Source of the DNA: Cyanidiococcus yangmingshanensis | Taxonomy: Eukaryota; Rhodophyta; Bangiophyceae; Cyanidiales; Cyanidiaceae | DNA length: 64,000 bases | Assembly (NCBI GenBank): GCA_013995675.1 | Contig: VWRR01000004.1 | Coordinates: 310,001 to 374,000 of the forward strand | Reading direction: 5' to 3' | Shown: one piece after another, positions 25,561 through 41,279 of the stretch | How positions within the stretch are numbered: the stretch's first letter is position 1 | Layout of the letters: each line of letters begins with the position of its first letter | Made by a program: the position numbers and the translations under genes | The notes under the pieces: generated by a model | What the model was told of the DNA's origin: nothing | The model's database searches: none | What the model saw: the letters and a program-made list of their open reading frames with translations, nothing else

Positions 25561-27983
25561 TCAACACGTTCGCCGCAGTCGACCCTTCGAATCGATTCCA
25601 TAGCGATGGGGAAACAGGTCGAACCAGCTGCGTTCAGGCGGGCGCATATACAGAACGGTTATCGCGTCATCCATACAGGCCTTCAACAACGTCGTCGCGG
25701 CGGTTTCCACGAATCCCCGTAGAGACTCGTCCATGATCACCAAGGCAGGACGCAGGTAAAGGGCTCGAGCGATGCTGAGACGCTGTTGTTCAGCTCGTGA
25801 CAAAACTTGGCCCCATCGAGCGAAAGCGTGGACACCACCAGCGCCATTCACTTTTGAAGAGAGTCCGACTCGTCGAATGGTATCACCCATCCGTATCGTG
25901 TCGTCCTCCAGCGCATGCTCAACAGCGGAGCAATCGGATAGGTTGCCACAACAGCCGTAACGGAGGCATTCGGAGAGACGAAACGCCCCGCTACGTACGG
26001 GTAGATGTGGCTCTGTCGGCAGAAACAGGGCATTGGTCGGCAGGAGCAGGCGTGATCGTTTTGTGCTGGTAGACGCCTCCAGGGACCAGATACCTCGCAG
26101 TGCGCGCATTAGAGCGCTCTTCCCAGCACCACTAGGACCCTCGATGAGCGTGTGTTCACCAACGCTCACGCGAATGCTCAAGTCCTGAAGCAGGATTTGG
26201 TTGCTACCAGGTACGCGTACACGAACGTTCTCGAGCCAGAGCAGATCCGTCGTGTCCGAATACTCTTTTCCAGTCGACAGACTTTGGTCTACATTCGCTG
26301 GCGGGTATGATTGTAACAACCTCCATAGAGAGAGCAACCGATTAGCGTGCAACGCATGGTGACGCAAATCGACGGTGAATTGTAAGAGACCAGAGAGTGA
26401 CCCGAGAAGTTGCATGAGCTCCGCAATGAGTTGTGCAGTCCATTGTACTCGTTGCTCGGGGGCTTCCGGCCCCAAAGTGCTTGTTTTCGATCGAACGAAC
26501 GCTAGTGCTGCTGCCGCATACGCCATCCACGCGTTCCCATAACCGGAGGCATGTTGCACAAAGACCAACGGGAGTCGACGTCTCAACTGACGCCGCATGG
26601 CCAGACAACACGAGGCCAGTTGCGTCTGCAGCGTGTCGAACTCGTCGCGGCCGCAACTGCACAAGGTTAAGGCTTCCGCCCCTTGACCATGGATGTATAC
26701 TGTGCTCGCATGCTGGTTTCAGTGGCATCCAAGTCGACCGTAGCCCGTTCGCTTCGACGAGCGAGGCACCAGATCAGACCATAGGAGCAAAGCACATACA
26801 CGAGACCGAGTATCAACACGAGCGGTGGCATGAAACAGTATGCTTTCCGAAGCTGCCAAACTGCCGTACCCATGTGCTCTAACAAGCCGCCGGAACCTCC
26901 GCCGCCACCTGTCACCAACGAGACGAGATCGACAGTGAGTACACGAACACTCGTGGTCGTCACTTGTTCAAATAGCTGCGCGAGCGCTGCATCCGATGCC
27001 ATCGCGAACAGAGGATTACACTTATGCATACTCGATAACTGGCCTCGCACTCCTGACTGACCAGAGGACGAAAGACAAGTTCTAGAAGCGCTCGGCCGGC
27101 CAGTCAGTTGACGATGCAGTTCGGCGGAGAGTCGCTCTCGCCACTGCCTCGCGATACGCTCATTCAGGGCAGCTCGAATCGTACGCCATACACTCAGGCA
27201 TGCAGACAGCCAGAGTAGTTCTCGGAGTGCCTTATGCAGACGTTCGACCTCGTTTGACCACAAGGCAGCGTAGAGGATAGAGGTTTCGATCACCAGCTGA
27301 TGGGTCAACCACAAGGTCACGGCAATAGTCAGTGGCACTACCATAAAAAATAAAAACTGATCGGGGCGCTTCTCTGTACATATACGCAGGGCGTTTATCA
27401 AGTCAATCCATCGCTGAAAACCCGACGCAAACGATGTTACGGGCGTCTCAGGAGACGTTCTCGTCGAGCGTTCCGACCAGACCGAGTCGTCAACCTGGCC
27501 GTGTGTCCAAGCCTCTTTTTCTGGTGCTCGAGTTGCCCTTCGAGTCCTTGAATGGTCTCCATACCCTCGATATCTTTCTCTTCTTCGCCATTCGCTTTTC
27601 ATGGTGAAGCATGCAGTCTGATCCGTCGAGTTTCGTCCGGGGGCGTCTGACTCAACACAGGGTTGCTCGGTTGGTTGGAACTGCCTCGCCGTCGAACTCG
27701 TCCTGGTCGTACCGTCACGGGACCGCGAAAGTTTGGTAAGATTCGCAGTCCATCTATTGGTCATTAAAGTGATTTTCGGTATATTCTGGATTGTGAACGA
27801 GGATTGGGGTCTAGTGGTGGACACCCGGGACGAGCGGTGAAAGACTGCTCTTCGGGACGAGGCTCGTTGGCGTTGGTAGCGCTCCTGTTCGCCGTCGTCT
27901 AAGGAGGCAAAACCTGCTTCTGGTGCGTTCTTTTGGCTGACTTCTTGAACAAGAGTCGGATCCAGTTTGAAAGGCGCTTTCAT
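25561..27983 (-). CDS. ABC half-transporter, ABCD-like, in two frames
   Basis: The upstream part (ATG 27983, about 438 codons) has a long basic, serine/arginine-rich N-terminus and then membrane segments (QFLFFMVVPLTIAVTLWL; PLVLILGLVYVLCSYGLIW). The region RTIRAALNERIARQWRERLS resembles the ABCD helix around the EAA motif. The second part (to 25561) is an ATPase domain with Walker A GPSGAGKSALM, a C-loop written LSRAEQQRLSIARALYL and Walker B ALVIMDES. The LSGGE signature is altered: both glycines are replaced. The two parts are one base out of frame, meeting at a GGGG run near 26668. ABCD proteins import fatty acyl-CoAs into peroxisomes; cyanobacterial-type relatives also exist, and the wording EQQRLSIARALYLRPA fits those. 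Membrane and substrate remain open. Confidence 0.8.
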
Positions 27984-36009: not shown

Positions 36010-37624
36010 TCATGCGGAACGCTCTAGCGCACGTCCACGAACATGTTGACAGAACAGACTCGTCAACGCGTCGAGCCAGGATCTCACGGTCGATAGGCAT
36101 TCACGAAATTGGTAGAGGAAGCGAGCGTATGGATGGAATCCGTCTCGACTAGAGCCCAGATCGGTCAGTCCGAGTGCATCCAGCGGGAGCCAGCGGTAAA
36201 GGCGATGCACGAGCCGCAGCGGCAGCATTGCACGATGTGCACGGTTGTGCGACTCGGTGTGCGCGTAACAGGAAACCAGCAAACCGTTCACGAGCGCCGT
36301 TCCTGATTCAGTTAGGGGTCCATACGCCCCGGTCCGGGAGACGGACGTGATACTGCGCACTTGGGCGGTTTTCCCAGACCGCAAGACAAGATAGGACCCT
36401 GGTTCTAGCAAACGCGCTCGAACGAAATCTAATGGTTGGTCCGAGAGGTCCCCGCTATGGACGACGGCGAGCAGATGATCTGGTGTTATCTCCAACGCTC
36501 CTTGGTTTCCCTCGAATTCCAGACGAAGGAACATTGTTTCCTGATTCGCTCTTCGGTCTAGAAAGCCAAGGAAACGAGTCTGAGCCAGATATGGAGCACC
36601 GTCTATGGCACTGAATGCAAGCGTCTCGACCCGATCACCAACGCTGAGGTCCTGTATCGAAACTCGGTTACCGTTGGAGACGCTGAAGCGTTGCGTCGCC
36701 GGGAAAGCAAGAGAAACTGGACGAGCCACTGCTTCCACCTGAGTCATTCACGAACGATATCGTTGTACCAGCGTTCACGATGATGTAATCCTGGCCCGAC
36801 ATTGTCCCGTTCGCCACCTGATACACCTGGCCATGAATGCAGGAACGGGTCACTCACACACATCATGTTTTGTACACCTTCCTGACTGTAAAAATCTTCA
36901 CACTGTACCTTCTGGTTGTAGTTGATGTTCACTTGGGCATTTTCCTCGAAGACCACATCAGGCAAACTGTCGCAGAACGGTTGCAGGTTCTGAAAGCCAC
37001 CCTCTTCGATCGATGTGGATCCGCCCGCCTCAACTGTAAAAACTGAAGCAGAATATCGGGGAACTCTTTCCGACAATGCCCATCGGGAGCGAGGTCGGCT
37101 TCGAATCCAAGGCCGGGTACGGGCCAGCGTCAAGGAACGCGAGGCCATTGGCCAGATACGCAAACGCAAACTGCCTCGCCGAACGTATACGAGTTGATGG
37201 TTTCAGCACTGCCAGAGGCACCGCGATTGAGCACAACGGCTCGGCTGATGTTTGTTGGGTTCGAAAACCTCCACAAAATCGTACCTTCAGTCTCGTTCAC
37301 CCAAGTCCATGTGACCTGCACGCCTGCACCACTTACACATGGGCTCGGACTCGCCTCTAGAGCAAAAACTTCTTCCCCACTGGACAAGGGGTGTTTAGAA
37401 CCTCTCGATCCAGGCAGGAGATAGGATCGGTGCACACTCGACCGCCCCCGACTGGTTCCGGTGCGCACTCGCTCGGGGACCGCGCCCGCTTTCACGCCTC
37501 TACCGAGCCATACCTCAGAAACCCGTTCGCCTCGGTTGCTCAGTCGTGCCCAAACGGAATACGAACCTAGACACACGAAGATAAGCAGAATCCACCAAGC
37601 CGTCGTTTTCGAAATCTTGACCAT
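36010..37624 (-). pseudogene. Secreted Hint-domain protein, paralogue spread over several frames
   Basis: From ATG 37624 the protein begins MVKISKTTAWWILLIFVCLG, a signal peptide or anchor. It continues with a domain also found in the neighbouring plus-strand gene (compare VNETEGTILWRFSNPTNISRA and the following VVLNRGAS). It ends in a Hint domain with SFSCFPGDAT, NRVSIQDLSVGDRVETL, ALEITPDHLLAVVH and GAYGPLTESGTALVNGLLVS followed by CYAHTESHNRAH. The pieces are in order but occupy about five successive reading frames, with changes in the same direction. Two of the changes fall in T runs. Either this copy is decaying or the assembly has indels here. It is the host's own gene. Unlike its partner, the domain ends in Ser-Cys-Tyr-Ala, the form found in animal Hedgehog proteins. 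Confidence 0.8.
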
Positions 37625-37961
37625 AAATAAGGAAGTTCGTTCTTCGTGAACAGGAAATAGGTCCCACGTGGCCGTGTCAAGCGCCGTGGCACTCCAGCAC
37701 TGGTGCACCACGAAAGCGAATCTCGCTGGTGCTGTCTGCGCGCGTGTGGCCGCACGGACAAGTTTCGACGCGATTTCGAGCGTGCGGTTGCGGTGCAGAT
37801 TTGCAGCACTGCAGAACTTGGACATTTGAACGGCATCGTCGCAGCATGCGATTGGTGCGCGATTCCCGGGACGCGCTACGAGCATTCACGTGGCGTGCAG
37901 ATCCCGGTTGCCATACGCACTCCCGAACGAGTCCACTGTTGTCTTGGATCGACGTTGAGGG
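37625..37961. promoter_or_regulatory. Shared upstream region of the divergent Hint gene pair
   Basis: 337 bp between the two signal-peptide start codons, which face away from each other. It should hold both promoters. I see no repeat or clear symmetrical element. The frame of the minus-strand gene stays open through part of it, but no signal peptide starts there. Confidence 0.5.
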
Positions 37962-39473
37962 ATGGCACCAGGCTTTCGTAGGGTGCCCCTCAATGTTTTG
38001 GTTCTTATATTTTGCTTGTATAGCCTTTTTTCCGGATGGTTTCATGTAACAGCTGCCCCAGTACGAGAACGAGGGCTGCTGGCTTCACTGGCACCTCAGT
38101 TCGCCAAGGTGTTCCAGTTCCATCGTCTGAAGCGTCGAGGATATCTGTCCTCTGGTTCCAGAATCAGTTCACGTATACGTCGGGCGGTTTTATGCGAAAG
38201 TGCGCTAGGTGTGCAAGTGCGTTGGATCTGGTTAGAGCAGTCCCAGGGGGTCATTTTCTGGGTGATCACGAACGCTGGGAATGAGACGCTCTCCGTTGTA
38301 CTTAACCGTGGTGCGAGCAACGTACCCGCGTATCCATTTGGTGGTGCTTTTTTTCCGGCCTATTTGACGGACGGAACGGACGGCGTGCAGCTCGCGACCA
38401 TTGGCACAGGTCCGTATCCCCCGGTGACCACGACACCGACGCTGCCCCTGGCGTTGATCGATGCCCAGCAAACAGGTGTTGCTTTTGTGCTTGTGATACC
38501 TGCTCGGACGGAAGTTTTCATCCCCGAAGGTGGATTTGTTAATGGTATCGTTCCTTTCTGCGAATCTGTTGTAGATGTGGATTTTGTAGCCAACCAGGGC
38601 ATGAACATGACCTATTCAGTGTGCGAAGAGTGTATTGAATTCTATGCGCAGACAGAGATGAATCCCCCATATGATTGCCCGACCAGTCCAATGGAGACCA
38701 ATATTCCGGTGTATCGCCCTAGAAATGAGTCTGCTTCGTTCGACTTTTGGCCGCAGAAGGGGAGCATCATCGAAATGGGCCCCGCCAACTTTACGGGAGC
38801 AGTGGAATTCACCGCGACCGATTCTGCGGCGAGCTGTCCCTCATCGGATACTGGTGGTTCGAGCTCGTCGGTTTTGATCGGTTGCTTCCCCGCCGCTGCT
38901 GTTGTTGAGCAAGAAGATGGTGAATTCGTATCGCTGGCATCACTTAAGCGTGGGACCCGTATCGCCACACTCGTACAAGATGAGCGCCGTGGCTGGGTGA
39001 AGCACTTTACGACTGTGTACGCTTTTGCAGATTCGCAGCCTGATGCAGACTCGCTTACGTATCTGGAGCTCCATACCAGTAGAGGCGATACGTTGCTGCT
39101 GACGCCCGACCACTTGCTCTATGCAAGCCTGTCGAATGACAGCCGCACCAAACGGTTCGTTCGTGCGCTGCACGTCAGCCCGGGCATGGCACTCGTGCGA
39201 GCAGACGGCACCCAGGATTCGATAACGCACATCGCTGTGACCAAGGCGCAAGGCGCTTTCGCACCGCTCACATTCGAGGGTACCATGCTCGTGAATGGCT
39301 ACTTGGTTTCGAGCTATGCAGACGTTGCTTCACACGAGCGTGCTCATTTGGTATTCGCACCGTTGCGAGCCTGGCATCGCCTTTTCGGTACCCCAACGCG
39401 TGCAGATTTTGCTGGACTCCATGGGTATGCGCAACTTCTGATATCACTGCGCAACTTGATTCAAAGCAAATGA
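37962..39473 (+). CDS. Secreted protein with Hedgehog-type Hint (Hog) domain
   Basis: 503 residues. Residues 1-31 (MAPGFRRVPLNVLVLIFCLY, then SLFSGWFHVTAA) form a signal peptide. Residues about 40-295 are a domain I do not recognise, with many aromatic and beta-like segments and cysteines (PFCESVVDVDF, CEECIEFY, CPTS). A serine/glycine linker leads to a Hint domain from about 305: GCFPAAAVVEQEDGEFVSL with the nucleophilic Cys, RGTRIATLV, LLLTPDHLLYA with the conserved Thr and His, and AFAPLTFEGTMLVNGYLVSS. The last matches the animal Hedgehog C-terminal segment, and the following ASHERAHLVFAPLRAWHRL resembles the Shh segment after it. Hint domains cleave their own chain at the Cys; in Hedgehog the released N-part is also lipidated. 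Here Ser replaces the late Cys of Ser-Cys-Tyr-Ala. Cleavage is inferred from conserved residues only. Confidence 0.9.
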   Translation: MAPGFRRVPLNVLVLIFCLYSLFSGWFHVTAAPVRERGLLASLAPQFAKVFQFHRLKRRGYLSSGSRISSRIRRAVLCESALGVQVRWIWLEQSQGVIFWVITNAGNETLSVVLNRGASNVPAYPFGGAFFPAYLTDGTDGVQLATIGTGPYPPVTTTPTLPLALIDAQQTGVAFVLVIPARTEVFIPEGGFVNGIVPFCESVVDVDFVANQGMNMTYSVCEECIEFYAQTEMNPPYDCPTSPMETNIPVYRPRNESASFDFWPQKGSIIEMGPANFTGAVEFTATDSAASCPSSDTGGSSSSVLIGCFPAAAVVEQEDGEFVSLASLKRGTRIATLVQDERRGWVKHFTTVYAFADSQPDADSLTYLELHTSRGDTLLLTPDHLLYASLSNDSRTKRFVRALHVSPGMALVRADGTQDSITHIAVTKAQGAFAPLTFEGTMLVNGYLVSSYADVASHERAHLVFAPLRAWHRLFGTPTRADFAGLHGYAQLLISLRNLIQSK

Positions 39474-39530: not shown

Positions 39531-40044
39531 TTACTGCTTTGGCGGCTGTGGTAAACCATAGGACTGGGTCAGATCGGCGAGCTGTTGTCGCATGAGCTCT
39601 GCGCTCTTCAAGTGCGCATTGCGTACCGCCTCGGTCACTGCATCGCTAACCTGCCGGATTGCCTTCAGCGAGAAGATCATCCGAAACTTCGACCCTGATC
39701 GGTATCTGTTGACCGGAGACAACGGCCCGAACACGGCCATCGCTGGATGTTGCTTCAATTTCCGTGTTCTTAAGCTCCTCCTGCAACGCTTGCGCAGACT
39801 TGGAAAACTCTTGAGCTTTTTTCATAGCGTCCATCAAGTTTCCCAGGCCACCAAACAAACCGCCACCCTTGCCTCCCGCTTTCCCATCCTTACTCTCCCC
39901 GTTGGACTGAAGGTGCTGCACACCCCAGCCGGGTCGGTCCTCGCTGGCTCGCACGGAGCGCAAACGCGCCTGCCCTCGCGGACACACAGCGGCGCCGCGT
40001 GCAAGCGCGCTCACCGAACAAGGGAAACTGCCACTTATGAACAT
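39531..40044 (-). CDS. YbaB/EbfC nucleoid-associated protein, plastid-targeted
   Basis: From ATG 40044 the chain starts MFISGSFPCSVSALARG, a red-algal type transit peptide. A glycine/lysine linker follows, then the YbaB fold: GLFGGLGNLMDAMKKAQEF, a helix with AQALQEELKNTEIEATSSDG, and the strand VRAVVSGQQIPIRVEVSDDL. The last helix, QVSDAVTEAVRNAHLKSAEL then MRQQLADLTQ, lies one frame away, ending at 39531, so the gene shows a single frame change near 39670 (between DDLLAEG and IRQVSD). YbaB proteins are small dimeric DNA-binding proteins of bacteria and plastids. The gene converges with the plus-strand Hint gene, 57 bp away. Confidence 0.85.
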
Positions 40045-41279
40045 GACCAAACGCAGAACGCTTGCGATAACGCTGACCGAGATCAGCGTCTATGTGAACC
40101 GCTCGTGCGAACGAAGATGCACTCGTTCGATAAGCGTTCAAGCCTGATGAATTGTGTCTCGATGGCGAGACGGCGCCGGTCGACGCGATGGCACCTGCCA
40201 TAAAAGTGCAGGCTTGAAGCAGCCTGATGGGACCCAGCGTTTTCTGGCCGATCCGGGGTTGCGCGCGAGAGACACCCACGCAGGACATCGGCTGGCGTGC
40301 ACGCATACATCCTAGATGTGTTGCGCCGAAGCTCATCCACAAAGGTGACGTGTCTGTCACTCGGAGAGAACAGATGGTCTGTGTCCATTATTGGGAAGAG
40401 ATGACCTACGGATGGATGGATGGATGGGACTCGAGCCATTCCTGTTTCTGGGTTGCGTTTCATCGCGTGGCGTCCATGGGCATGGGCGGAACGCATGCCT
40501 TCGATCGCGGTCGCAATTTACTCGGATTCGACTGGGACCGGACCCCTCAGCAGAGCATGAATTCGGTCGCGGGAATCATGCACTTGATTGGAACCTCTCC
40601 ATCAAGGCCAACGACGGTGGAAATCTGGTTCCTCTATTCAGAGAGACGAGCGGTCGTTGCATCCATCAAACGCGGGGATACCGAACGCCGACTTGACCGG
40701 GATGACGCTGCGGAACGATGCAGAAAGGGTGCGAAACGGCCTTTGTCTCAATGCCGTCGGGAGCGCGAGACGTAGAATTCTAGCGCTCACGCCAATACAT
40801 CTCTCGGTTGCGTCCCGCGTCCAGTGAAGATCGACGTGGCGCTGCCGACGGTTCTAGCCTATTGTTGCCGTCATCGCCTGGAGCCGAGTCCTAATATTCA
40901 AGTCTCGGGGACAGTCTACGCAAGCACACAATCCTTTGAATCATATATCTTGAGCCGAAGAGTTCGTCGATCGTCTCGGTTTCGGACGTTGCGTCTTGGC
41001 TGGACGCCCCACGGCCGTCTGGACCACGCGGGGATGTCTGCGCTGCCCCGCGTGGCGCCGGCTGCGCCACTCGCCAAAAATCGGTGTGTTCAGCACTGTC
41101 CAGGACTTGCTTGCTTCCAAGGTCGTTCCGTTCTGGTAGAGCTCCTCAATTACCCAAGTACTGAAAGGGAAAACGTCTTTGAAACAAGTGGGTAGTAAAC
41201 GAAGGTGGCAGTTCTCGGGGGCTTGCGTCTTGTTACACAACTGGAAAGGTGCACCGAGGCGCGCAAACGCTCCCGTTTT
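40045..41279. other. Intergenic region without a recognised gene
   Basis: About 1.2 kb. An ATG-started ORF of 182 codons (40227-40775, plus) is the longest but has no family resemblance and spans a GGAT tetranucleotide run near 40413. The right part should hold the GPC1 promoter. Confidence 0.4.

Follow-up and report, generated by a model that had tools for sequence, protein, structure and literature searches.

A divergent pair of putative non-Hedgehog Hog precursors and two candidate Hog active-site classes in Cyanidiococcus yangmingshanensis

The window analyzed here, a 64,000-nucleotide stretch of Cyanidiococcus yangmingshanensis DNA (contig C15:310001-374000 of an assembly of 12,072,675 bases in 20 contigs), contains two genes that read apart from a 337-bp spacer between their start codons (37625..37961). 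Each encodes a common N-terminal domain (N-domain) and a C-terminal Hint domain of the Hedgehog type (Hog). We favor, with moderate confidence, the interpretation that these genes are long-separated paralogs for secreted non-Hedgehog (non-Hh) Hog precursors, that the minus-strand gene is functional, and that self-cleavage would yield an N-domain with a sterol at its C-terminus, a membrane-tethered surface protein. An initial annotation had described such a pair from sequence alone; its account of the plus gene, the spacer, the motifs and the shared N-domain held, whereas no single open reading frame (ORF) in this record spans the minus gene.

The plus gene (37962..39473) is intact and encodes a 503-aa, probably secreted protein in which the Pfam Hint profile (PF01079) matched residues 300-500 (E 1.8e-34), where a Hint domain had been expected. 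A 245-aa ORF on the minus strand (36010..36747), which holds most of the Hint domain and sterol recognition region (SRR) of the second gene, matched at E 1.1e-35, far above chance, and the plus and minus Hint ORFs scored 119.7 and 123.6 bits against a curated cut-off of 29.7. Using Hedgehog-equivalent numbering (C258, D303, T326, H329 and C400), alignment and structure place C308 of the plus Hint fold (38883..39320) at the nucleophilic C258, D357 at D303, T381/H384 at T326/H329 and S451 at C400. The minus ORF keeps D303, T326 and H329 (within TPDH), C400 and the His of the HWY hinge. This His is also kept in the plus SRR-like segment (39321..39470), a helix-loop-helix with the motif GLHGYAQ as assigned by DSSP on the model. 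The motifs TPDHL, (A/G)PLTxxGTxxVNGxLVS and HERAH/HNRAH are present as first described. At the proposed Gly/Ser-Cys-Phe-Pro start, the plus protein has Gly-Cys308; the SCFP of the minus gene lies in a frame other than that of its Hint ORF, which has A-F-P at that column.

We conclude that both domains are of the Hedgehog type and not the intein type, as the initial annotation had preferred. Hedgehog was the top match in Pfam, in a PDB profile search that returned Hedgehog chains only, and in the fold comparison; structure comparison of the model identified a Hint fold, and both domains carry the Hedgehog-specific Asp and the SRR. Inteins have the Hint fold in common with these domains, and weak matches to NCBIfam intein N-terminal models occurred in two of eight members; however, the domain is C-terminal with only SRR helices after it and no downstream extein, and its C-terminal junction reads S-S-Y or S-C-Y instead of His-Asn, so that inteins, or protein splicing of some other kind, are highly improbable here. 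The Ser at the C400 position of the plus protein does not exclude Hog membership, because some Hogs of red algae are known to have lost the Cys at this position to another residue (PMC2362128). In a protein search, the relatives of the plus protein, itself aside, were P0002 (61%), P0003 (50%) and P0004 (42%), the last a Cyanidium caldarium protein with 84% covered by the match.

Secretion, self-cleavage and attachment of a lipid or sterol are plausible and form the most likely course for these precursors. The N-termini, proposed earlier as signal peptides, are strongly hydrophobic by hydropathy (best 17-residue means of 2.1 in the plus and 1.8 in the minus protein), and the plus-strand stretch at 37962..38060 is a probable signal peptide. 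The precursors would enter the secretory pathway, and the C-terminal Hint would perform an N-S acyl shift, at Gly-Cys308 in the plus protein and at Ser-Cys in the minus protein. The SRR would hold an endogenous sterol, which the D303 equivalent would activate to attack the thioester, and the N-domain would be set free with a C-terminal sterol as a membrane-tethered surface protein. The genome encodes a squalene epoxidase (E 6.2e-95) and an oxidosqualene-cyclase-type protein (E 3.5e-42).

To compare catalytic residues, the Hint parts of 14 genome copies, the relatives P0002-P0007 and a Drosophila Hint fragment that stops before the HWY-hinge column were aligned in 21 rows; below, D-type and H-type denote Asp and His at the D303 column. 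Asp303 is present in 10/10 D-type rows together with the HWY-hinge His, and it has been reported that Asp303 matters in sterol transfer and not in the acyl shift (PMC4695875). These residues argue against a different outcome, to which we give a low but real probability, in which the Hogs self-cleave but water or another nucleophile (glycerol, a glycan or another lipid) forms the adduct, leaving the N-domain freed or anchored otherwise. In its favor, the SRR is divergent outside the hinge, the use of cholesterol is known for animal Hedgehog alone, and Burglin did not decide which adduct the non-Hh Hogs form (PMC2362128).

Several observations weigh against sterol-linked processing of both proteins. 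The record shows the minus gene with a broken frame. The residue before the nucleophilic Cys is Gly, as in animal Hedgehog, only in the plus clade (the plus protein, P0002 and P0003), and other D-type members have Ser, Val, His or Thr there. Ser451 at the C400 position is shared with P0003 only (2 of 21 rows), and C400 mutants were reported to be impaired in both processing steps (PMC4695875). Finally, fold confidence is low outside the Hint domain, with a mean pLDDT of 59.8 and a pTM of 0.38 for the full plus model.

The N-domain (38169..38786 in the plus gene) is common to both genes by sequence comparison, as originally claimed, and in this genome it is confined to four D-type genes (six matches). 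No Pfam family matched it above cut-off in any of eight relatives, and among the relatives found it appears to be Cyanidiales-specific. Modeled alone it forms a beta-rich sandwich (pLDDT 73, pTM 0.73) with weak fold matches only, an Ig-like or transglutaminase beta-sandwich being a candidate fold. Its cysteines 78, 200, 224 and 239 are invariant in eight aligned proteins, and our guess would be an external, disulphide-bonded binding domain. The Hedgehog signaling domain HH_signal was absent from the Pfam matches of the plus protein (E<=1) and of the eight relatives (E<=10). A genome search for it also gave no match, a weak absence given that the control genomes gave none either, whereas the Patched family had no match in a genome search whose controls did match. 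The earlier statement that this cell lacks Hedgehog signaling agrees with the Patched result and, more weakly, with that for HH_signal.

The minus gene (36010..37624, minus strand) had been taken for one coding protein. Homology to intact relatives instead recovers five stop-free pieces from 37624 to 36010. Between them the frame changes four times, always in the same direction, at about 37170, 37045, 36833 and 36685. When joined with X, these pieces matched P0005 (51%, 97% covered, 534 aa), P0006 (47%, 94% covered) and P0007 (38%, 78% covered), each of which is a single protein. It is most likely that the minus gene is functional and that its frame changes are errors of the record. The alternative that it is a decaying pseudogene and that the plus gene works alone has in its favor the four frame changes, the frame change in one gene of a second pair on contig C20, and a plus protein that requires no frame-broken partner. 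We consider it unlikely: all five pieces are free of stops with the homologous frame scoring highest for coding among the three frames, D303, T326, H329, C400 and the hinge His are retained, and two intact relatives of the minus protein exist. Further, a gene for TrpB, at one place in the genome (C14:~208400-209500), is also spread over three frames by two frame changes; its middle piece matches TrpB positions 86-215 of 385 (E 6.3e-67) and the remainder is divided between the other two frames. Since TrpB should be indispensable to an alga, the TrpB breaks at least are more likely record errors than decay.

Against the record-error interpretation, short reads had been used to correct the published assembly of 8.1.23 F7 (PMC9812998), and errors leave without explanation the common direction of all four minus-gene changes, the C20 change and both TrpB changes. 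This shared direction would fit genuine frame changes overcome in the cell by programmed frameshifting, a very improbable solution in our estimate. The TrpB breaks came from a codon-score hidden Markov model (HMM) scan that covered 264 kb, made up of the window plus twenty stretches of 10 kb; the scan is insensitive, as it did not pick up the minus gene's own frame changes. Of its 8 candidates, 5 run in one direction and 3 in the other, one candidate of the three-member direction adjoins a homopolymer run, as expected from sequence error, and a literature search yielded no report of frameshifting in these algae. An ABC-transporter gene on the minus strand of the window (25561-27983) is also split over two frames, near 26680.

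The active-site comparison extended to the whole genome, where PF01079 matched at 14 places, 13 complete and one 5′-truncated (C20:3853-4296) without the Cys and Asp/His columns. By sequence, the family divides into two groups, which differ at the sterol-handling catalytic residue. The D303 column holds Asp in four internal genome copies, all six relatives and Drosophila, and His in 9/9 complete chromosome-end copies, 24 residues from the Thr, the same distance as in Drosophila. The HWY-hinge residue is Met in 10/10 chromosome-end rows, the truncated copy included. The other columns are nearly uniform: H329 is His in 21/21 rows, T326 is Thr in 20/21 (Ser in the first C20 gene), C400 is Cys in 19/21, and C258 is Cys in 19 of the 20 rows with a residue, the exception being the minus Hint ORF on account of its frame. 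An unrooted tree separated D-type rows plus Drosophila from H-type rows with support of 100/99, with several long end branches. The nine H-type copies include many recent duplicates that are almost identical to one another, and so they are far from nine independent events.

The groups also differ in location. Each of the ten terminal copies is found no more than 14 kb from the end of its contig, whereas the four D-type genes are inside C15 and C20, the window pair at C15:346-349 kb of a 724-kb contig and the second pair, in tandem, at C20:82563-87291 (first gene with one frame change, second intact, 500 aa). Kelch families scored above cut-off in four of the nine complete terminal copies, below it in two and not at all in three, with some frames cut by the fetched stretch; Pfam found none in the plus protein or in the three minus ORFs scanned. 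The only divergent H-type copy, near a chromosome end (C13:293431-294036), carries a separate N-domain and gave no match to kelch. Window GC was 52-59% across 4-kb steps, and a YbaB/EbfC-like ORF adjoins the plus gene (39646-40050, minus strand).

A tentative interpretation, which may well not hold, is that one alga has two natural autoprocessing classes. Internal Asp303/His-hinge Hogs would make ordinary sterol-linked surface proteins, and chromosome-end His303/Met-hinge Hogs, many on kelch proteins, would have swapped the general base and may accept other sterols or alcohols. The same His occurs in the engineered fly Hedgehog D303H (D46H; PDB 6TYY), which reportedly keeps structure and activity with more than 200-fold higher activity on coprostanol and more than 300-fold on epicoprostanol (PMC9163320). 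That protein is a laboratory mutant, whereas the algal copies have the His by nature and show a further difference at the SRR hinge. No description of a natural His at this position was found in the literature searched, which left out Zhao et al. 2019.

Compared with animal Hedgehog (Drosophila Hh and Sonic hedgehog), the pair shares the Hint fold, the Cys nucleophile, Asp303, TxxH, the APLT-GT-VN block and the SH..AH..FAPLR and GxH.Y motifs of the SRR; unlike it, the algal proteins lack the Hedge signaling domain and have an unrelated, beta-rich N-domain, and the plus protein has Ser at C400. The pair also resembles the non-Hh Hogs of red algae and other protists (Burglin 2008; red algal proteins in PMC2362128), which pair a secreted N-domain of unknown kind with a Hog domain and in some red algae have the motif J Cys replaced, as in the plus gene. 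The species named there are Chondrus, Griffithsia, Porphyra and Gracilaria, with no cyanidiophyte in the lists available to us. Cyanidiales have subtelomeric kelch/trefoil/Hint genes (Cho 2023; Nozaki 2007), with hedgehog genes in C. merolae (PMC1955436) and duplications across the order (PMC9812998), and these and the Cyanidiococcus Hogs of a 2026 Plant Cell paper belong to the same genome family with a C-terminal Hint. The window pair differs from the subtelomeric members in being internal, in its lack of a kelch match, in its own N-domain and in keeping Asp303 and the HWY His, which are replaced by His and Met in the nine complete terminal copies. Ten Hog genes were reported in Cc. yangmingshanensis, eight expressed mainly in haploid and one mainly in diploid cells (PMC13353863), and the window pair is likely among them; strain, annotation or counting may account for the difference from the 13-14 copies here. 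The initial annotation had called the divergent arrangement new. The layout is as described, with the minus gene frame-broken in the record, but Hog genes of Cyanidiophyceae including Cyanidiococcus are published (PMC9812998, PMC13353863), and the pair is ordinary in kind. In the available portion of PMC13353863, no distinction between internal and terminal Hogs on the basis of the active site was seen, and the active-site split deserves testing.

Animal Hedgehog is a demonstrated case of a Hog domain that attaches a sterol, and the question for the many protist and algal Hogs dates from 2008. Here one genome, from a haploid, transformable lineage that is also cell-wall-less (PMC13353863), combines a D-type Hog gene that is intact with genes for sterol synthesis and with both active-site classes, D and H, in natural form. 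This allows tests outside animals of how protein sterolation arose and of its chemistry. If the two-class interpretation is true, the cell surface would carry two differently anchored sets of proteins, possibly according to life-cycle phase.
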